NCBI RefSeq assembly: GCF_900411375.1
Contig: NZ_LS423006.1
Coordinates: 1 to 64,000, forward strand
Reading direction: 5' to 3'
Source of the DNA: Lentilactobacillus raoultii
GTDB lineage: Bacteria > Bacillota > Bacilli > Lactobacillales > Lactobacillaceae
Length of the DNA: 64,000 bases
Numbering within the stretch: position 1 is the first letter of the stretch; every line of letters starts with the position of its first letter. Position numbers and translations under genes: made by a program. The notes under the pieces were generated by a model. The model was not told where the DNA came from and ran no database searches. It worked only from the letters and a program-made list of their open reading frames with translations. Of the stretch, positions 4,305-56,011 are shown piece after piece.

Positions 4305-4473
4305 AACTATGTAATTTTACCATATCCATGTCATTTTCTAATTAAGAAACCGTGAAATTGATGAGAAAATTGTCAGATAGTCAGCTTAGGGACTTCCTAT
4401 TTTTGTGGTGATTTAAATTAACCGTTGAATTTTTGACGGCTGTGTGTTAACTTATTTTTAACAATTAAATAAT

Positions 4474-4600
4474 TCTTCGGGGCAGGGTGCAATTCCCGAC
4501 CGACGGTAACAATCTTTGGTGGTTGAAGTCCGTGACCCGCGTATAGCGGTGGACCCAGTGCAAGTCTGGGACCGACAGTAAAGTCTGGATGGGAGAAGAA
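4474..4600 (+). ncRNA. FMN riboswitch (RFN element)
   Basis: The leader has the conserved blocks of the RFN element in order: TCTTCGGGGCAGGGTG, AATTCCCGACCG, GGTAAC, the AGTCCGTGACCCGC segment, GGTGGACCCAGTG, CTGGGACCGACAGT and GATGGGAGAAGAA. It precedes ribD with an intrinsic terminator in between, so FMN is expected to stop transcription of the whole operon. A -35-like TTGACG lies at 4433-4438, but the matching -10 is poor. Confidence 0.95.
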
Positions 4601-4681
4601 AAACACGACATGTTTGGGATAACCAAAAGTCGGCTTATTTGAGTCGGCCTAAGGCAACCAAGCTTTTAAAGTGATCTTAAC

Positions 4682-17815: not shown

Positions 17816-17845
17816 AATTTTGTGCCATAAGATTTTAATATTTAG

Positions 17846-18110
17846 ATAACGATGATGAGAAGAGTAAGTTGTTAATTAAATTTTAAAGAGAGCGTCGGTT
17901 GGTGAGAAGGCGCAATTAAATAACAACTGAAGATGAACTCGGAGCATTCAAACTCGTGCAAGCGTGATTGACGTGAGGAAGCGTTACTTTCCAAAACTTA
18001 CTAAATGGTGAGTAATTAAGATTGCCTTTGTGAAGGGGTAATAACTTAAGGGTGGTACCGCGGTTTTAACCGTCCCTGTTGACTTCAAATAGTTAACGGG
18101 GACGGTTTTT
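17846..18110 (+). ncRNA. T-box riboswitch with terminator
   Basis: The T-box consensus AGGGTGGTACCGCG is at 18049-18062, followed by terminator AACCGTCCCTGTTGAC/GTTAACGGGGACGGTT (18068-18110). Stem I is visible: AGTTGTTA (17867-17874) pairs with TAACAACT (17921-17928), an AGTA faces GAA (17929-17931) as in the loop E motif, and the apical part has GGTTGGTGAGAAGG. By position the specifier is GAT (17932-17934, Asp). However, the acceptor-pairing TGGT (18053-18056) implies a discriminator A, which fits Leu (CTC 17938-17940) or Met (ATG 17933-17935) better. The cognate tRNA is therefore unresolved. Confidence 0.92.
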
Positions 18111-41445: not shown

Positions 41446-41481
41446 CTCACCAATATTTAGAGAAAAACGAACTAAATAAAA

Positions 41482-41591
41482 TGGCGAATGCGAAAACAAT
41501 ACCGCAACCAATCGACAAGTCGAAGTTGATTGGCTTTCGTTCGAAGTTCACATTCCGTCCCTTCGACACTTAACGCATTGCTTCCTACCCC
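41482..41591 (-). ncRNA. tetrahydrofolate (THF) riboswitch upstream of folT
   Basis: On the minus strand the leader carries GGGTAG, CAATGCGTTAAGTG, a CGAAG...CTTCG hairpin enclosing GGGACGGAATGTG, ACGAAAGCC, and TTGCGGTATTGTTTTCGCAT. The GCGUUAAGUG block, the GCGGU-AUUG closing strand (pairing with CAAUGC) and the position before folT agree with THF-I riboswitches of Lactobacillales and clostridia. Outer helix P1 is weak in my reading. Confidence 0.7.
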
Positions 41592-41630
41592 ATAATTTTT
41601 GATAACTATTAAAGTGTATCATATTAAGTA

Positions 41631-43171: not shown

Positions 43172-44893
43172 ATGTCATTCGACGGATCTTTTATCCATTC
43201 AATGAGACAAGAACTGGCGGCCTTGCTTCAAACCGGACGGGTTAGCCGGATTAATCAACCTTATCCAAATGAACTGATTTTAACCATCAGAGCTCACGGG
43301 AAAAATCATCAATTGCTCTTATCGGCTAATCCAACTTACGCCAGAGTGCAAATCACCCAAATTCCCTATGTAAATCCTGCGGTTCCAACTAATTTCGCAA
43401 TGATTATGAGAAAGCATCTTAATGGGGCGATCCTAACCGAAATCAAGCAACTGGAAAATGACCGGGTTTTACATTTTGGCTTTACGGGACGCAATGAATT
43501 GGGTGACCAGACAAAGTTACTACTAATTGTCGAAATTATGGCACGACACAGTAACATTACATTAGTTAACCAGGCCGACAATAAAATTATTGACGCGATC
43601 AAACACGTTGGCTCAGATGTTAATCGTTATCGATTACTATTGCCCGGTGCCATTTATATTAATCCGCCTAAACAAACATTGCAAAATCCATTTACCAAAA
43701 GCTCATTCGACGACATTAGTCAATTATTGATTGATTACCCGAATGTCGATGTGTTAGCAGGTGCACTTCAAAAAACTATTCAAGGACTTGGCAAAGACAC
43801 TGCAATGGCTTTGGCAAAGACCCTTCACAAGGATTCAAATGTTGAAAAAAACTTCAAAACTTTCTTTCAACAATTTAATGCACCAAAGCCAACGTTGAGC
43901 CATATTGGTACTAACAAGATTAATTTTACCGCATTTCCGTATCCAGATACAGATAAAAATGAGGAATATTCGAGCTTAAGTGATCTTTTGGACGCCTACT
44001 TTGCCAATCGAGCCCAACGTGATCGAGTTCGTGAGCAAGGTGCCGTTTTAATCCAAGTGGTTAAAAAACAGTTAAAGAAAAATCGTACCAAGCTCAAACG
44101 GCTGAAAAAAGATCTCCAAGCAACCGAGAACGCGGATGAATATCGTATTAAGGGTGAAATCTTAACAACTTACCTTAATCGGGTTAACAGAGGAATGACG
44201 TCCATTGAGCTGCCAAACTATTATGAAAACAATGCGCCAATTAAAATCAAGCTTTCCAATCAACAATCTCCCTCTGAAAATGCTCAAAAATACTTCAAAC
44301 GCTATCAGAAGTTAAAGAGTGCGGTTAAATTTTTGAATGAACAAATTCAACTGACAGCCCAGGAGATTGATTATTTTGAAAATATTCAATCTCAAATTGA
44401 GTTGGCTAAGCCCGAAGACTTGGTTGATATTCGGTATGAATTGGAGCAAGGACACTATTTAAAAGATCATGAACAGCATAAAAAGAAAAAGCATAAACGT
44501 CGAAAAATTAATCGACCAGAAAAATTCACATCAACTGACGGTACTGAAATCTTGGTCGGTAAAAACAATCTGCAAAATGAACGGTTAACAATGCATACTG
44601 CGGATAAACGAGAAACGTGGCTTCACACAAAAAACATTCCCGGCTCTCATGTTATCATCCGAAGCTTTGATCCATCACAAACAACGATCGAAGAAGCTGC
44701 CAACCTTGCCGCTTACTTTTCGAAGGCTCAGCACGCCACTAAAGTACCGGTTGATTATACAAAGGTTAAAAACATTCGTAAACCTAACGGGACCAAACCT
44801 GGTTATGTGATTTATGATAGTCAACAAACTTTGTTGGTAACACCGGATCCAAAATTAATTAACCAATTATCAGAAGCCACTAAAACTAAATAA
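43172..44893 (+). CDS. rqcH: RqcH/NFACT ribosome quality control protein
   Basis: 573 residues. NFACT-N domain at the start (MSFDGSFIHSMRQELAALL, RISRINQPYPNEL-like), central coiled coil (about 285-430, rich in Lys, Glu, Gln), and C-terminal NFACT-R domain with RETWLHTKNIPGSHVIIR and KPGYVIYDSQQTLLVTPD. Homologues bind the 50S subunit with peptidyl-tRNA and add alanine tails; older annotation is fibronectin-binding protein FbpA. GAAAGAGAG precedes the ATG. Confidence 0.92.
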   Translation: MSFDGSFIHSMRQELAALLQTGRVSRINQPYPNELILTIRAHGKNHQLLLSANPTYARVQITQIPYVNPAVPTNFAMIMRKHLNGAILTEIKQLENDRVLHFGFTGRNELGDQTKLLLIVEIMARHSNITLVNQADNKIIDAIKHVGSDVNRYRLLLPGAIYINPPKQTLQNPFTKSSFDDISQLLIDYPNVDVLAGALQKTIQGLGKDTAMALAKTLHKDSNVEKNFKTFFQQFNAPKPTLSHIGTNKINFTAFPYPDTDKNEEYSSLSDLLDAYFANRAQRDRVREQGAVLIQVVKKQLKKNRTKLKRLKKDLQATENADEYRIKGEILTTYLNRVNRGMTSIELPNYYENNAPIKIKLSNQQSPSENAQKYFKRYQKLKSAVKFLNEQIQLTAQEIDYFENIQSQIELAKPEDLVDIRYELEQGHYLKDHEQHKKKKHKRRKINRPEKFTSTDGTEILVGKNNLQNERLTMHTADKRETWLHTKNIPGSHVIIRSFDPSQTTIEEAANLAAYFSKAQHATKVPVDYTKVKNIRKPNGTKPGYVIYDSQQTLLVTPDPKLINQLSEATKTK

Positions 44894-44897
44894 AATT

Positions 44898-44937
44898 AAA
44901 AACCAACTTTACTCGTAATAAGGCAAAGTTGGTTTTT
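44898..44937. terminator. bidirectional terminator between rqcH and the CarB-like gene
   Basis: AAAAACCAACTTT (44898-44910) and AAAGTTGGTTTTT (44925-44937) pair perfectly. Confidence 0.9.
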
Positions 44938-44940
44938 AGT

Positions 44941-47475
44941 TTAAACATTATTCTTTTCAGCTAAATCAAGGGCGTTTTCAACATTTTTAAAAGAAAGTGA
45001 CGCACCTACCTCTTGAGTAGATGTCCCATCCTTTCGATTGGACTGAAGTTCTCTAAATGGAAAGACTGCCTCCATAACAGCGTATCGCTGATGCTGCCCT
45101 AGTTGGTAGTATTCAGAAAGCTGATCAACATCCAGCACACCCAAGTATTTCTTGACTAAAGCATCAATCCAATTAACGCCTGTCGTTTTATTCAAGAAAG
45201 CCGATTCAGTAATTCGAATTGGTCGAATACCGGCAAACTGATAACCATTATGATCGGTCTTTTTAAATAAAACTTGAACCAAGCCCTGCCAATAACGCGT
45301 GTCGATTTGTTGGATAGCCGTTTGAATTAACCCATCTTCATACTTTTCCCAATTCGACATTGGTTGCTGATAGTCATTAATATAACGCAAATCAGTCCGA
45401 TGACTTCGGGTATAAAATGAAATAGTTGTAATAGGCAAGATCCGATCGTTATCAATAAACAAATCAACAGCTTCTGTGGCTTCCCGTTGCTTGTATTCAG
45501 CAACTTTTTGATCTGGCGGCAATACCACGATATTTAAATCCGCAAATTCTTTTAATTTTTTTGAAAGATAATGTCGATTTCCAGGCAGAAAAATAATATC
45601 CGGATTTTCCAAATTAATAATGTTTAAAATATTTCCCAACTGAATCGGCTCGATGTATTGCTTATCGCTTAATGCCGGTGCCAATGAAATCGCATTTGGA
45701 TTGGTATTCATAATAATGGTTTGGTAACCGGCTTTTTTAGTTGTGTTAAGAATTTGAGCCGTATAGTAATCTGCAGCGGCATTCGGCCCAAGTTGATTAC
45801 CCCCTCGGCCAATCACCAACGCTGTTTTCCCAGAACACGGTTGACTCTCGTTTTCTAACTCATAACTGCTATAGAAAACGTTGGTTGCTTCAATGAATTC
45901 ACCAGCGCTTGGCTCGATTTCCTTAAAGGTCACCCTTTGTTTCGCATTCCTGTTCATTCGTTCAATCGTTGAGATGTTGACATTCCAAAGTTCAGCCAGC
46001 ATGCCGTCACCAAAGCCGTACTTATGGCCAACCTCAACGGCAGTCGGCGAGAGTGGGTTGTTAATAACAAAATCCTGTGCCCTTAACAACTGATTCATTT
46101 TATAAAAATAAAAGCGATCAATTTTAGTTAACTCAGAAAGTTCATCAATGGAAAATCCTCGACGTAGTGCTTCCATTAAAATAAGAATTCGACTTGCTAA
46201 AGGATGAATCAGCTGGTTGATGACATCATCGTCATTCACCTTTGAAACGCTGGGTAAAATATCGCGAGGCGAAAACTGCGAACTGTGCATGGCTTTCATA
46301 ATGGCTTCCTCAACAGTTCTGCCAACACCAATTGTAGAACCAACCGATTTCATCAATGTATTGAGATGCTGATCAACATCCGGAATATCTCTGAATGGCC
46401 ACAATGGGATTCTCACGACAACGTGATCCATCGTTGGTTCCATAAATGGTAAATACTTACTGTACTTTTCGGGTAATCTGACCTCTGGCAATGCGTAGCC
46501 CATTTCGAGCAGAGTCGAGACATATGATAGAGGATACCCCGTTGATTTTGCAGCTAAAAGAGAATTTCTTGTGAAAAATGGGCTGACTTTAGTAATAAAA
46601 TAACTGGAATCAGTTCGACTTTGTGCAAATTGTATATGACAAGTTCCCGTTATATTAATAGCATCCATAATTCGAAAAGTAGCTGTTCTCAACGTTTGAT
46701 ATTCTTGATTAATTAATGTTTGGGTAGGTGCAAAAATAATTGAATCTCCAGAGTGAATACCGATTGGATCCATGTCTTCTAAACCGGATATCAATAATTT
46801 ATTACCATTTTCATCTCGAACAGCCACCATTTCAATTTCTTTATAACCAACGATACTTTGTTCAATTGACACCCGTTTAATATAAGTTCGCTTAAAACTA
46901 ATCTCCAGAGCATCTTCCAGCTCATCCGTATTATTGCAGATAAACCGACTGGTATCGTGGCTAGCTGATAGTGGTTTAACGATTACTGGAAAGCCGACAT
47001 CTCGCACGAAATCCATGGCTTCATCCTCATCAGCGACAATTTTGGATGCAATAATCGGTTCATCAGTTTCGAGCAAAAGTTCTCTTAATTTTTGATTATC
47101 CAGCACTTTTCTCAGATCAATCGGGCGAATTCCCAATAGTTTAATGTGGTTATTGGTTAAGACGTCACTTTCTTCTAATTGCCAAGCCACTTGCATGGCA
47201 TTTAACCCGCCAATTTTAGGCATAATTGCATCAGGTTTTTCTTTTTCAATGATATTAACAACGTTTTGAAAATTAACTTCTTGAACATAAACGTCAGCTG
47301 GTTGGACCTCTTCACTAGCAAAAGAGAACGGATTATTATCGACATATATCACACGTGTACCGGTTTTTTTAATTGCCATCAATCGTTCATAGGCGGCCGC
47401 ATCCAATTCATTTTCATGACCGATGTTCGTTGGGCCACCGCCGAGCAAAAGAAGTTTTTTAATAGTCATCGTCAT
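44941..47475 (-). CDS. CarB-like carbamoyl phosphate synthase large-chain pseudoenzyme
   Basis: 844 residues from the ATG at 47475 (AAGGG upstream), against about 1060 for CarB. Homology is clear: KKLLLLGGGP, KPDAIMPKIGG, GLEDMDPIGIHSGDSII, LAAKSTGYPLS, the helical middle domain FSIDELSELTKID, then ALVIGRGGNQLGP and TIIMNTNP. But in the first ATP-grasp the glycine loop is lost (SASHDTSR, 170-177) and the E-x-N-x-R metal/ATP motif reads K296, S298, F300. The second ATP-grasp is reduced to about 110 residues without motifs, and the C-terminal allosteric domain is missing. Carbamoyl phosphate synthesis is very unlikely. Frame intact and overlapping the CarA-like gene by 17 bases, so a retained non-catalytic role is inferred. 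Confidence 0.8.
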   Translation of the reverse strand: MTMTIKKLLLLGGGPTNIGHENELDAAAYERLMAIKKTGTRVIYVDNNPFSFASEEVQPADVYVQEVNFQNVVNIIEKEKPDAIMPKIGGLNAMQVAWQLEESDVLTNNHIKLLGIRPIDLRKVLDNQKLRELLLETDEPIIASKIVADEDEAMDFVRDVGFPVIVKPLSASHDTSRFICNNTDELEDALEISFKRTYIKRVSIEQSIVGYKEIEMVAVRDENGNKLLISGLEDMDPIGIHSGDSIIFAPTQTLINQEYQTLRTATFRIMDAINITGTCHIQFAQSRTDSSYFITKVSPFFTRNSLLAAKSTGYPLSYVSTLLEMGYALPEVRLPEKYSKYLPFMEPTMDHVVVRIPLWPFRDIPDVDQHLNTLMKSVGSTIGVGRTVEEAIMKAMHSSQFSPRDILPSVSKVNDDDVINQLIHPLASRILILMEALRRGFSIDELSELTKIDRFYFYKMNQLLRAQDFVINNPLSPTAVEVGHKYGFGDGMLAELWNVNISTIERMNRNAKQRVTFKEIEPSAGEFIEATNVFYSSYELENESQPCSGKTALVIGRGGNQLGPNAAADYYTAQILNTTKKAGYQTIIMNTNPNAISLAPALSDKQYIEPIQLGNILNIINLENPDIIFLPGNRHYLSKKLKEFADLNIVVLPPDQKVAEYKQREATEAVDLFIDNDRILPITTISFYTRSHRTDLRYINDYQQPMSNWEKYEDGLIQTAIQQIDTRYWQGLVQVLFKKTDHNGYQFAGIRPIRITESAFLNKTTGVNWIDALVKKYLGVLDVDQLSEYYQLGQHQRYAVMEAVFPFRELQSNRKDGTSTQEVGASLSFKNVENALDLAEKNNV

Positions 47476-48550
47476 TATAATCCCTTCTTCTTGCCATAAA
47501 TTCTGTAAAGTCATCAAACAAACCGACACTATCTTTAGGGCCGGGAGCCCCATCCGGAGAAAATTGAACTGAGAATGCCGGATAATCTCGATGGCGAAGT
47601 CCTTGAACCGTTCCATTAACTAAATCAATATGGGTGATAAACATCTTAGCATGGTCAATTGACTTTGAATCCACAGCGTAACCCTGTTCCTGACCAGAAA
47701 AGAAGATTTCATTTGTAATGATTTCACGAATCGGGTGATTGCTGCCATGATGTTCAACTCGTAATTGGCTGACTTTAGCCCCATTGGCCATTGCAAATAA
47801 TTCGTGTCCCAACCCAATTCCCAGTAATGGGACCTGAGTTTGAACTTCACGAATCATTTGCAAAACAGACTCCGGTAAATTTCCTGGTGCCCCGGGACCG
47901 GTAGATAAAACAACGCCATCCGGATCTAAATCCAGAATTGTTTCACTTGTCGAATTCCACGGGACTACCGTGACATTACAATCCCGCTTGGAAAGTTCTC
48001 GAAGAATCCCGCTTTTCAGACCAAAATCAACAACAATCACATTAGCACCTTCGTCTGGATTAGGGTACGGCTTAGGAGTGGCTACTTGAGCAACTTGTTG
48101 ATTGGTTAACACGGTAGCATGCAACTGATCAAAAGCATGTTCATCGGCAACGTCAACGATACTTGCCATCATATTACCCTTTTGTTGAAGATGCCGTCTA
48201 ATTTGCCGAGTATCCACATCGTAAATTCCGGGAATCCTATGCCGCTTTAAATATCGATCCAGGGAAATGCGTTTGAAATGGTCAGTTGCCAAATTTTCGT
48301 ATTCCCGGACAATGACACCCTTTGCAGACGGCAAAACGGACTCGTACGCATTCTGCGCGAGTCCTGTATTGCCGATTGAAGTTTGGGTAAAAACAATAAT
48401 TTGGTTGTGATAAATTTGATTGGAAATGATTTCCTGATACCCATTCATGGTGGAGTTGGCAACCAATTCACCCGTCGTTGTTGCAAGAGACCCAAAAGCC
48501 TTACCTGCATAAGCGGAACCATCTTCTAATATCAAATATCTTTGCGTCAT
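47459..48550 (-). CDS. CarA-like glutaminase-subunit pseudoenzyme
   Basis: 363 residues, normal CarA length. N-terminal domain (LEDGSAYAGKAFG, TMNGYQEIISN, GIYDVDTRQIRRHL) and C-terminal class I amidotransferase fold (VVLSTGPGAPGN, HHGSNHPI, GYAVDSKS, AFSVQFSPDGAPGPKDS). The catalytic nucleophile is gone: GICLGHQ of the family reads GIGLGHE, with G246 in place of Cys. The His-Pro-Glu of the triad reads S331-P332-D333. Glutamine hydrolysis is therefore ruled out by known chemistry. AAGGAG precedes the ATG. Follows pyrR by 27 bases, where active pyr genes lie in other bacteria. Confidence 0.85.
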   Translation of the reverse strand: MTQRYLILEDGSAYAGKAFGSLATTTGELVANSTMNGYQEIISNQIYHNQIIVFTQTSIGNTGLAQNAYESVLPSAKGVIVREYENLATDHFKRISLDRYLKRHRIPGIYDVDTRQIRRHLQQKGNMMASIVDVADEHAFDQLHATVLTNQQVAQVATPKPYPNPDEGANVIVVDFGLKSGILRELSKRDCNVTVVPWNSTSETILDLDPDGVVLSTGPGAPGNLPESVLQMIREVQTQVPLLGIGLGHELFAMANGAKVSQLRVEHHGSNHPIREIITNEIFFSGQEQGYAVDSKSIDHAKMFITHIDLVNGTVQGLRHRDYPAFSVQFSPDGAPGPKDSVGLFDDFTEFMARRRDYNDDDY

Positions 48551-48577: not shown

Positions 48578-49111
48578 TTACTTAATCAATTCGACTGCAT
48601 CTTTATCATCAATTTCTGAAACATAAACCTTAATTTTTTCTTTTTGAGAACTTGGAATATTTTTGCCAACAAAATCTGCTCGGATTGGCAATTCACGGTG
48701 GCCGCGATCAACTAATACAGCCAAATTAATGCTTTTTGGGCGACCTAAATCCATTACAGCTGATAAAGCAGCTCTCACAGTTCGACCTGTGTACAAAACA
48801 TCGTCTACCAGAATGACTCGTTTACCTTCAACGGAAAAATCAATTTTGTTATTGGACATTTTAACGTCGGTACTAAGTGAATCGTGTTCAATATCGTCAC
48901 GATAATTCGTAATATCAAGCTCACCAACCGGAATGGTAACGTTTTCCAGTTGCTGAAGCCGATCAGCAATTCGATTTGCTAAGAAAATTCCTCTGGTTTT
49001 AATGCCAATCAAAACCAGATCTTCAACACCTTTGTTTTTTTCGACAATTTCATAAGTAATTCGGGTTAATGCCCGTTGCATTGCCATTTTGTCTAAAATT
49101 ATTTTGCCCAT
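48578..49111 (-). CDS. pyrR: PyrR, pyrimidine operon attenuator / uracil phosphoribosyltransferase
   Basis: 177 residues from the ATG at 49111, 8 bases after AGGAG (a GTG one codon earlier is possible). PRPP-binding motif [39 protein letters not shown] and [21 protein letters not shown] are typical PyrR. In relatives it binds pyr mRNA leaders with UMP. No clear PyrR-binding loop was seen in the 102 bases upstream. A strong promoter precedes it. Confidence 0.92.
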
Positions 49112-49183
49112 CACTAAATCTCCTCATAAATGATTTGGTTGTTGATTTAATACAGAAAAATCGGAAGATAGCTTATCCACTCC

Positions 49184-49212
49184 AGAATATGGAAGTCATC
49201 CGCCATTGTCAA
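49184..49212 (-). promoter_or_regulatory. pyrR promoter
   Basis: On the minus strand TTGACA (49212-49207), 17-base spacer, TATTCT (49189-49184), about 70 bases upstream of pyrR. It allows pyrR and the CarA/CarB-like pair to be transcribed separately from lspA-rluD. Confidence 0.75.
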
Positions 49213-49216
49213 GATT

Positions 49217-50116
49217 TTATTTGGTATCGGTTCGTAAGGTCCTCAAAGTTTTCTTGAAGATTTCCGGTAATGGCGCTGAAAAGAGCATTAATTCGTGTGT
49301 CCGGGGATGCTCAAAGCCCAATTCCTGGGCATGTAGAAATTGACCATGCCCACGAATTGTTTTCTTAGGGCCATATAGGGGATCACCAACCAGCGGATGA
49401 CCAATGTACTGTAAGTGGACTCGAATCTGGTGAGTTCGCCCTGTTTCCAATCGGCACTCAATTAATGTATAATTTTGAAACCGTTCCAACACCTTAAAGT
49501 GAGTGATGGCCGGTCGACCACCCACAACGACAGCTTGTTTCTTTCGATCCTTTGGACAGCGACCGATCGGAGCGTTAATGGTGCCAGCTTCTTCTTTAAT
49601 TCGACCATGAACCAATGCAATGTATTTTCGCAGATTTTTTTTGGCCTTTAATTGTTCAGATAGCGCCTGATGGGCAGCATCATTTTTAGCAACCATCAGT
49701 AAACCGGAAGTATCTTTATCAATTCGATGAACAATTCCCGGTCGATATTCTCCGTTAATTGACGAAAGTGGACTATGGTCTAATAAAGCATTCACCAAGG
49801 TGTGGTCTGGATGCCCCACTGACGGATGCACAACCATTCCCTGTGGCTTATTAACCACAATTACGTCTTGATCTTCATACACAATATCGAGTGGTATTTT
49901 TTCAGGGATGATTTCCGTCGGTTGGGGTTTTACCTCCATAATTGTGACTATATCGGCCGGCTTGGTCTCATACTTTGGCTTCTTATTTTCACCGTTAACG
50001 GTAATATGGCCGTCCTCAATCATCTTTTTTGCCATTGATCGGCTGATTTGAGGGTCTAATTGACTGACCACCTTGTCTAGACGGCCCAAAACAGTTGTAA
50101 TTCTAATTTTTTTCAT
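49217..50116 (-). CDS. RluD-type 23S rRNA/tRNA pseudouridine synthase
   Basis: 299 residues. N-terminal S4 domain (LDKVVSQLDPQISRSMAKKMIEDGHITVNG), then catalytic GIVHRIDKDTSGLLMVAKND with the Asp, LRKYIALVHG, LIECRLETGRTHQIRVHLQYIGHPLVGDPLYG. Corresponds to YlyB of Bacillus, also between lspA and pyrR. AGGTGGGG lies before the ATG. Confidence 0.92.
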   Translation of the reverse strand: MKKIRITTVLGRLDKVVSQLDPQISRSMAKKMIEDGHITVNGENKKPKYETKPADIVTIMEVKPQPTEIIPEKIPLDIVYEDQDVIVVNKPQGMVVHPSVGHPDHTLVNALLDHSPLSSINGEYRPGIVHRIDKDTSGLLMVAKNDAAHQALSEQLKAKKNLRKYIALVHGRIKEEAGTINAPIGRCPKDRKKQAVVVGGRPAITHFKVLERFQNYTLIECRLETGRTHQIRVHLQYIGHPLVGDPLYGPKKTIRGHGQFLHAQELGFEHPRTHELMLFSAPLPEIFKKTLRTLRTDTK

Positions 50117-50134: not shown

Positions 50135-50575
50135 TTATTTTTCGCGGATGATTGCGAAACCAATAATCAAAATTCCAACCGTCAAATAAATATCCGCACA
50201 GTTAAAAATCGGGAAATTAATAAAATCAAGTTGAAACATATCTACAACGTGATTGCTAAAAATCCGGTCAAGAACATTGCCAACCGTTCCGGCCAATAAT
50301 AAGCACAAGCCAACTCGATACCAATGATTTGGCCAATAATGAATCAAAAAATAACTAATTAAAACAGTGGCAACAATTGCAATTAATACAAACACAAATT
50401 GGTGCCCTGATAAGATGCTCCACGCAGCACCCGTATTATTAATTCGGGTTATCGATAAAAAACTCGGAATCAACGTAAATGATTGACCAAGCGTTAATGC
50501 ATTGACAACCCAATGTTTAACAAATTGATCAAGCCCGATCAGCAATAAAATGCCGATAATATATACAACTGGCAA
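50135..50575 (-). CDS. lspA: signal peptidase II
   Basis: 146 residues with four helices. Catalytic Asp motifs: GTVGNVLDRIFSNHVVDM and FNCADIYLTVGILI. N-terminal LIGLDQFVKHWV and ITRINNTGAAWSIL are conserved. Cleaves lipoprotein signal peptides at the membrane. 14 bases downstream of fhs, 18 upstream of the pseudouridine synthase gene. Confidence 0.95.
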   Translation of the reverse strand: MPVVYIIGILLLIGLDQFVKHWVVNALTLGQSFTLIPSFLSITRINNTGAAWSILSGHQFVFVLIAIVATVLISYFLIHYWPNHWYRVGLCLLLAGTVGNVLDRIFSNHVVDMFQLDFINFPIFNCADIYLTVGILIIGFAIIREK

Positions 50576-55616: not shown

Positions 55617-56011
55617 CGTGCAAATCCCGATAAGCCATGTTTTGTGCCTGCTTGTTCCCAGGAACGAACCAGCAGGTAGTAATCATCTATCTGGGAAACA
55701 GCCAATGCTGTCTCTCCCCCACAGTTGGTTCATTTACCGTCTGTGAAGCTCCCCTACCAAAGTTTGGGTTTCCCGCTCGAGGGGTTTACCGCGTTCCACT
55801 GTCATGATTTCTCACAACATTCGTCACTGTGGCACCTTAAGGACTCATCCGCATAGCAACGCCTTAGCATCGAGTCCGCCGTCACTCTTATTCAGAGTTC
55901 CCCGGCTTATTTTTTCACCGAGCACGAACACTACAGACATCTCAGTCTGTGCGAGAATGGACTTTCCTCAGCCACCATAAAGGCGACCGCGATTACCTGA
56001 GATTTGCACGG
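55617..56011 (-). ncRNA. rnpB: RNase P RNA
   Basis: On the minus strand the RNA opens with CGTGCAAATCTCAGGTAATCG and closes with CGGGATTTGCACG, the P1 helix. The conserved block GGCTGAGGAAAGTCCATTC (CR-I), the region near 55860 encoding AAGGTGCCACAG, and GCTTGTTCCCAGG/TAAGCC-type P8-P15 parts are present. Length about 395, as in Bacillus-type B RNA. The catalytic RNA matures tRNA 5' ends. Confidence 0.93.

Follow-up and report, generated by a model that had tools for sequence, protein, structure and literature searches.

Why should a bacterium keep, directly downstream of pyrR, both subunits of a carbamoyl phosphate synthase (CPS) whose catalytic residues are gone? The question is raised by a 64,000-nucleotide stretch of Lentilactobacillus raoultii (positions 1 to 64,000, forward strand, of contig NZ_LS423006.1, assembly GCF_900411375.1), which we call the window. 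Its minus strand carries carA' (47459..48550), encoding a small subunit of 363 amino acids, and carB' (44941..47475), encoding a shortened large subunit of 844 amino acids. Judged from their residues, the glutaminase and both ATP-grasp activities of the pair have been lost. Natural selection still appears to guard both dead subunits where a pyrimidine operon once stood, which suggests a second job of CPS. The reading that we favour, and consider rather probable, is that the pair persists as a folded, non-catalytic CarA'-CarB' complex, retained as a scaffold or regulator, with a binding role that predates the loss of catalysis. Such a complex would account most simply for the conservation of the pair, its repeated origin, the recurrent substitution, the pattern of shortening and the fact that the pair does not depend on live CarA or PyrR.

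Catalytic residues and domains of CarA' and CarB'

An earlier note, made from the sequence alone, had called the pair intact in frame and dead in catalysis. In CarA', the nucleophile is indeed missing: the motif reads GIGLGHE, compared to GICLGHQ in the live CarA of the same genome, and the codon GGG for Gly246 (47813..47815, minus strand, within a pattern match at 47801-47821) replaces the Cys codon. The note had also listed a Ser-Pro-Asp motif as a loss. Ser331 (codon at 47558..47560, minus strand) does replace the catalytic His (FSPD versus FHPD/E), but the Asp is no loss, since live CarA here usually have it as well (63/73 of the Cys type). The Cys-His pair of a functional glutamine-dependent CPS is absent from CarA' (Gly246, Ser331). 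Among 158 distinct CarA proteins from all the loci fetched, the nucleophile position was Cys in 73, Gly in 85 and never another residue; the His was present in 72/73 of the Cys type and missing from 84/85 of the Gly type. CarA' was aligned over nearly the whole small subunit in the Pfam (CPSase_sm_chain and GATase) and PDB searches (1c30_B, E 3.5e-73). It also passed the NCBIfam small-subunit equivalogs, models that are blind to the dead residues. Conservation at the old CarA active site (residues 241-270) drops from 0.89 to 0.62, and in residues 121-150, the linker region, it climbs from 0.55 to 0.67.

CarB' has lost the glycine loop of its first ATP-grasp (VIVKPLSASHDTSRF versus VIIRPAFTMGGTGGG) and the E-x-N-x-R triplet (YFITKVSPFFTRNS versus YYIIEVNPRVSRSS), as the note had said; the degenerate triplet segment spans residues 295-303 (46567..46593, minus strand). 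Domain alignment of the window protein retained 400 of 400 positions of D1, 147 of 148 of the oligomerisation domain, 290 of 387 of D2 and 5 of 124 of the allosteric domain. The absence of the C-terminal allosteric domain is therefore confirmed; part of the second ATP-grasp (D2) is missing as well, but the shrinkage is milder than the "about 110 residues" that had been claimed. CarB' thus has neither the complete second ATP-grasp nor the allosteric domain of a functional CPS. Pfam (D1, D2 and D3) and PDB searches aligned it over approximately the first 60% of the large subunit (E. coli CarB residues 4-655), and it fell below the NCBIfam CarB equivalogs (scores of 528.8 and 507.6 bits, where the cut-offs are 1027 and 599). 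Its 844 amino acids are counted from the ATG at 47475; the mechanical open reading frame extends further upstream. Across genera, CarB' is either dead at full length (1054-1067 amino acids, e.g. g14, g21, g27, g37 and g40) or about 640-900 amino acids long. The short forms that were aligned kept at least 351 of 400 first-half positions and 98-148 of 148 oligomerisation positions, while D2 and the allosteric domain were lost. carA'-carB' is thus an enzyme-family relative with its catalytic residues lost, as expected of a pseudoenzyme.

Retention, selection and origin

Both frames were open in all 24 Lentilactobacillus genomes in the draw, and Gly was present in all 24 CarA'. The order FTHFS-lspA-rluD-pyrR-carA'-carB'-NFACT (FTHFS, formyltetrahydrofolate synthetase) was found in 14/14 Lentilactobacillus loci (13 named species and one metagenome-assembled genome), some neighbours being split in the L. 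farraginis record. The family survey used one or more representatives per genus from 40 Lactobacillaceae genera, and within-genus variation is given where it was read (genera other than g1 are coded; G and L numbers are our labels for genomes and loci). The dead pair with Gly was found in 33 of the 40 genera (g1-11, g14-24, g26-28, g32 and g34-40), adjoined by rluD in all of them except g28, where only pyrR was recognised. Five genera (g12, g13, g25, g30 and g31) have a live pyr operon at the locus. Genus g33 (G033; L102/L151) is in a halfway state, with the Cys kept, the catalytic His changed to Leu, ATP-site residues changed and a full-length large subunit. At least one CarA homologue was kept in 394/397 Lactobacillaceae genomes, and aspartate transcarbamoylase (ATCase) was above the cut-off in 331/397. 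A DNA pattern for GIGLGHE matched 7/246 genomes across the order, all of them Lactobacillaceae, at low sensitivity, as most dead CarA differ from it by a residue. A looser pattern across the class matched 227/299 genomes; CarA similarity was found in none of the 30 loci opened, 19 of which held a protein of 426-437 amino acids that we take to be the Obg GTPase.

Purifying selection was strong wherever it could be computed, with ratios of nonsynonymous to synonymous substitution (dN/dS) of approximately 0.05 or lower. Between L. rapi and L. dabitei (L037/L035), dN/dS was 0.048 for CarA' and 0.051 for CarB', compared to 0.049 for NFACT and 0.137 for RluD (dS approximately 0.05-0.1), and PyrR had no nonsynonymous changes. 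In a second pair (L024/L025, from G157 and G051), where the sole CarA is the dead one, dN/dS was 0.006 for CarA' (YN00), and CarB' had a dN of 0.037 and a dS of 1.52 (NG86). These figures leave out most of the 13 species pairs tried, which were saturated or gave no YN00 estimate. The frames in Lentilactobacillus are neither disrupted nor neutral, as those of a pseudogene would be, and the purifying selection expected of a pseudoenzyme is present. A decaying copy confined to one strain is ruled out by the 24/24 open frames, the same place in most genera and the low dN/dS.

Live pyr operons fill the position that the dead pair holds in other genera, flanked by pyrR and NFACT (for g30, the sequence fetched does not reach NFACT), and dead copies nest among live pyr-type CarA in the CarA trees. 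Synteny and tree support an origin of carA'-carB' as a remnant of pyrAA-pyrAB from an ancestral pyr operon at the locus. Parsimony gave four to six Cys/Gly changes, depending on the tree, and a single clade of all Gly rows was rejected by the approximately unbiased (AU) test when other families were included, in a tree of 85 rows (p 0.00054). These results suggest that catalysis was lost more than once, each time with Gly for the nucleophilic Cys, as seen on the wider tree and not on the Lactobacillaceae tree alone.

Dead CarA was also found in three other families (f2, f3 and f4). In genus g43 (family f4), which is probably Streptococcus, a name that we assume, 12 of 33 genomes had dead CarA, 17 had live CarA and 4 had no match; the gene preceding the dead CarA resembles ATCase. 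The g43 loci are L181, L189, L211-L221 and L223-L225, and the large subunit has 577-579 amino acids in the four loci read that far. Families f2 and f3 each had one dead-CarA genome (G405 and G546; loci L185 and L186) with a single CarA match; in these clusters pyrE was above the cut-off, the remaining genes being judged by size and order only. Both genomes presumably obtain carbamoyl phosphate from another source, e.g. arginine or agmatine breakdown.

Possible binding partner, CarA linker and proposed role

The earlier note had proposed that the pair is kept for a non-catalytic task, such as sensing nucleotides, bicarbonate or pyrimidines, or modulating a true CarAB or PyrR. The first part agrees with the open frames, the constant place, the purifying selection and the origin more than once. 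Modulation of CarAB or PyrR is not general, because one genome (G242, 99% complete, 40 contigs) keeps the pair without live CarA, ATCase or PyrR: its sole CarA match is the dead one, there was no ATCase match, and nothing beyond distant phosphoribosyltransferases was found for PyrR. This genome also has a second, weaker CarB-type match. Another genome (G017, 87% complete) keeps the pair likewise without PyrR. Co-occurrence with an intact carAB was also mixed. In the L. raoultii genome, contig C12 carries one further, intact carA and carB side by side, next to an ATCase gene, but 5 of the 24 Lentilactobacillus genomes (G013, G051, G157, G217 and G346) had one CarB match, no second full-length CarA and no ATCase match near the cut-off; the second CarA match of G013 is a distant amidotransferase. 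Neither constant coexistence with a live paralogue, as in a prozyme, nor with PyrR, as in a co-regulator, was found. G242 and the genomes without live CarA rule out modulation of a true CarAB or PyrR as the general role, and neither a live CPS nor ATCase nor PyrR can be the partner of the pair in general. The short CarB' forms have no classical allosteric domain and so cannot sense nucleotides through it; bicarbonate sensing is conceivable, although the first ATP-grasp has lost its site residues.

The best candidate for a binding site is the interdomain linker of CarA' (residues 133-158, 48077..48154, minus strand, containing HAFDQLHATVLTNQQV), present in all the dead copies read and not in live copies coexisting with a dead one. 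Six positions between H138 and V147 were scored (H138, A139, D141, Q142, A145 and V147). Five or six matched in 85/85 dead CarA and in 5/5 live CarA at the locus, compared to 0-2 in 18/18 live CarA elsewhere in genomes with the dead pair. L091 behaved likewise; it belongs with the coexisting live CarA but stands outside that class in the six-position count. Sixteen live g43 CarA had 4-5 matches; 17 of the 25 live CarA from other families had 5-6 and the remaining 8 had 0-3. Five arg-type or second copies had 0-3, the live rows L096 and L097 had 0-1 and L151 (g33) had 6. In an unselected column scan (46 live, 85 dead and 19 coexisting live CarA) the linker was the best 12-residue window (0.42; mean -0.11, sd 0.18), and H138 was present in 38/46 live non-coexisting, 85/85 dead and 0/19 coexisting live CarA. 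A column scan of CarB (11 live, 34 dead and 17 coexisting) gave no comparable window (best 0.06). An RNA-level or overlapping signal in the linker was rejected, as four-fold sites were equally variable (major-base frequency 0.44 versus 0.44; 9 and 62 sites, 23 sequences). The complementary retention makes the linker a lead towards the binding site, not a proof of it.

According to the reading that we favour, the live enzyme probably had the second function already. Once live CPS genes had come to stand elsewhere, or the cell had stopped making carbamoyl phosphate, catalysis would have been dropped and the second function retained. What remains would be a folded CarA'-CarB' complex, probably a scaffold or regulator that binds other proteins; it is CarA' plus the N-terminal half of CarB' that is kept, every shortened CarB' aligned having this half. 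The nucleophile of CPS lies in a strained turn, and the recurrent Gly would fit selection for a stable fold for that reason. We propose a fuller version tentatively, as something short of probable: the pyrimidine CPS of Lactobacillales may have had an older, second, non-catalytic function in the CarA linker and the CarB N-terminal half, and may have been turned repeatedly, by Cys to Gly, into a scaffold or regulator, in pyrR-linked forms perhaps an inorganic-carbon sensor behind PyrR2.

Several results weigh against the favoured reading. A single origin survived the AU test when only the 73 Lactobacillaceae rows were in the tree (p 0.096). AlphaFold2 models built from 15 near relatives had a mean pLDDT (predicted local distance difference test) of 31.6 for CarA' and 46.3 for CarB', so the fold is deduced from homology only. 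The six linker positions were chosen from the same data in which they were scored; eight of the 25 live CarA from other families have no linker although no dead copy was found there; H138 is missing from some of the 46 live non-coexisting CarA. The contrast between live copies comprised only 3-4 independent pairs, all in the expected direction or neutral, and the sign test was not significant. Linker divergence could also be mutual insulation of two coexisting CPS complexes, which would produce part of the same pattern. In addition, the pair can be lost: dead CarA was not found in g29, where both CarA of G029 are live (the rluD locus of this genus was not opened), and G163 has no CarA match. 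Outside the family, 18/51 sampled genomes had no CarA match and four more (G400, G401, G503 and G525) had distant amidotransferase matches only. Finally, CarB' is broken into frames of 139 and 691 amino acids in Limosilactobacillus fermentum DR9 (L228, CP033372.1). As separate observations, the DR9 record is filed as a 760 kb plasmid with a gene annotated as carbonic anhydrase adjoining the split CarB', and the large subunit beside a live CarA in G029 (L133) consists of two frames of 853 and 207 amino acids.

The rival that survives best, though it is unlikely, is a regulatory module with PyrR, in which the dead, formerly bicarbonate-using complex relays inorganic-carbon status to the adjacent PyrR (of PyrR2 type) and so sets pyr expression. 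pyrR lies directly upstream of the pair in the window and in many loci read, and one genome (G332 of g38, inferred to be Lactiplantibacillus) encodes PyrR twice, in the live pyr operon and again with carA'B'. An inorganic-carbon link is attractive for the pyrR-linked forms because PyrR2 of L. plantarum is said to respond to inorganic carbon (PMC3582564). In that species lp_1782 is given as pyrR2 and lp_2704 as pyrR1 (PMC7911632); lp_1782 may be the pyrR beside a dead pair. Against such a module, G242 and G017 do without PyrR, the pair sits away from PyrR in the representatives of g3, g6 and g37, the ATP/carboxyphosphate residues are gone, and two loci from other families (L187 and L188) have PyrR beside a live CarA without the linker.

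A prozyme-like modulator, one that would join the cell's live CarAB in mixed complexes, seems very unlikely. Dead activating paralogues are described elsewhere (PMC5201418, PMC3663545), the L. raoultii genome has a live carAB, and the oligomerisation domain is kept, but five Lentilactobacillus genomes have neither a second CarB match nor a second full-length CarA, and 22/24 genomes of g15 had a single CarB match (its motif was read in G365 only). Purifying selection also remained strong between G051 and G157. We give hardly more than a slight chance, smaller again, to a new enzyme with different chemistry in the old active sites: all the dead copies have Gly246, 56/85 of them have Glu at residue 250, and CarB' has preserved most of the DPIGIHSGDSI segment of CarB, but the glycine-loop, ATP-site and triad residues vary by lineage, and no catalytic-looking new invariant set was seen. 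A slowly decaying pseudogene, consistent with the lost catalytic residues and domains, the faster divergence of CarB' than of CarA' and the one broken L. fermentum frame, is refuted for Lentilactobacillus by the open frames and the dN/dS far below 1, and family-wide retention makes it extremely improbable overall.

Locus context and known systems

On the minus strand the gene order is lspA, rluD, pyrR, carA', carB', and the NFACT gene converges on it across a common hairpin terminator. pyrR (48578..49114) is open and lies 27 bp upstream of carA'; rluD, a pseudouridine synthase gene (49217..50116), and lspA (50135..50575) are conserved upstream neighbours, and the NFACT/Rqc2-type gene (43172..44893, plus strand) bounds the locus. 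We take the names of lspA, rluD and NFACT from familiar sequence features; one annotated L. fermentum record agrees on lspA and the RluA family. The 17-base overlap of carA' and carB' described in the earlier note (47459..47475) was found again, as were the ribosome binding sites (by eye, AAGGAG before carA' and AGAAGG before carB') and the terminator between the convergent carB' and NFACT genes (44897..44938, minus strand; -18.4 kcal/mol, z -5.2). The "strong promoter" turned out to be weak: the best match, TTGACA-17-TATTCT, lies upstream of pyrR (49184..49212, minus strand), and the scan was at chance (23 sites versus a mean of 21.5 in shuffles). Rfam at the gathering score, run on the whole window, gave no PyrR element or other match near the pair. 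Elsewhere in the window it found a tetrahydrofolate riboswitch (41480-41594, minus), approximately 9 kb from the FTHFS gene heading the lspA-rluD-pyrR block, a flavin mononucleotide riboswitch (4469-4604, plus), a T-box leader (17843-18080, plus) and a class B RNase P RNA (55626-56004, minus).

That most genera of the family retain a dead complex that arose more than once, with one substitution recurring, would mean that a textbook enzyme has an undescribed cellular role, testable in harmless food bacteria, some of them without a live CarA as a confounder. Dead copies are also named as CPS: a dead CarA (GIGLGHE) is annotated "carbamoyl phosphate synthase small subunit" in a named L. fermentum record. 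Such names can mislead metabolic models, G242 seeming competent for carbamoyl phosphate when, by its sole CarA, it is not. Searches of the Creative Commons-licensed literature listed no paper that describes a dead CPS pair from lactic acid bacteria, which does not establish its absence from print, and nothing relevant to the pair on transposon essentiality.

Among known systems, the carbon response of L. plantarum PyrR2 resembles the present case in its second PyrR, possibly the one beside the dead pair; it differs in that the available part of its description (PMC3582564) gives no CPS-like protein a role. The trypanosome prozymes, dead paralogues of S-adenosylmethionine decarboxylase and deoxyhypusine synthase (partial accounts in PMC5201418 and PMC3663545), are likewise dead paralogues that were kept, but they act on a live partner, while the pair here is kept even where live CarA was not found. 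The closest relative is the pyrimidine-type CPS of Lactobacillales (PyrAA-PyrAB, CarAB), nearest by tree, at the same locus and with both subunits in the same order; by contrast, carA'-carB' has no Cys nucleophile, His or ATP-site motifs, and in many genera the large subunit is shortened and the allosteric domain gone. Ureotelic CPS I, which has no catalytic Cys and uses free ammonia, has retained its two ATP-grasp sites and does make carbamoyl phosphate; its structures 5dot and 6uel were among the PDB matches. Both systems retain a GATase-type domain without the nucleophilic Cys, but CPS I synthesises carbamoyl phosphate, whereas CarB' is predicted from its residues to be unable to do so.

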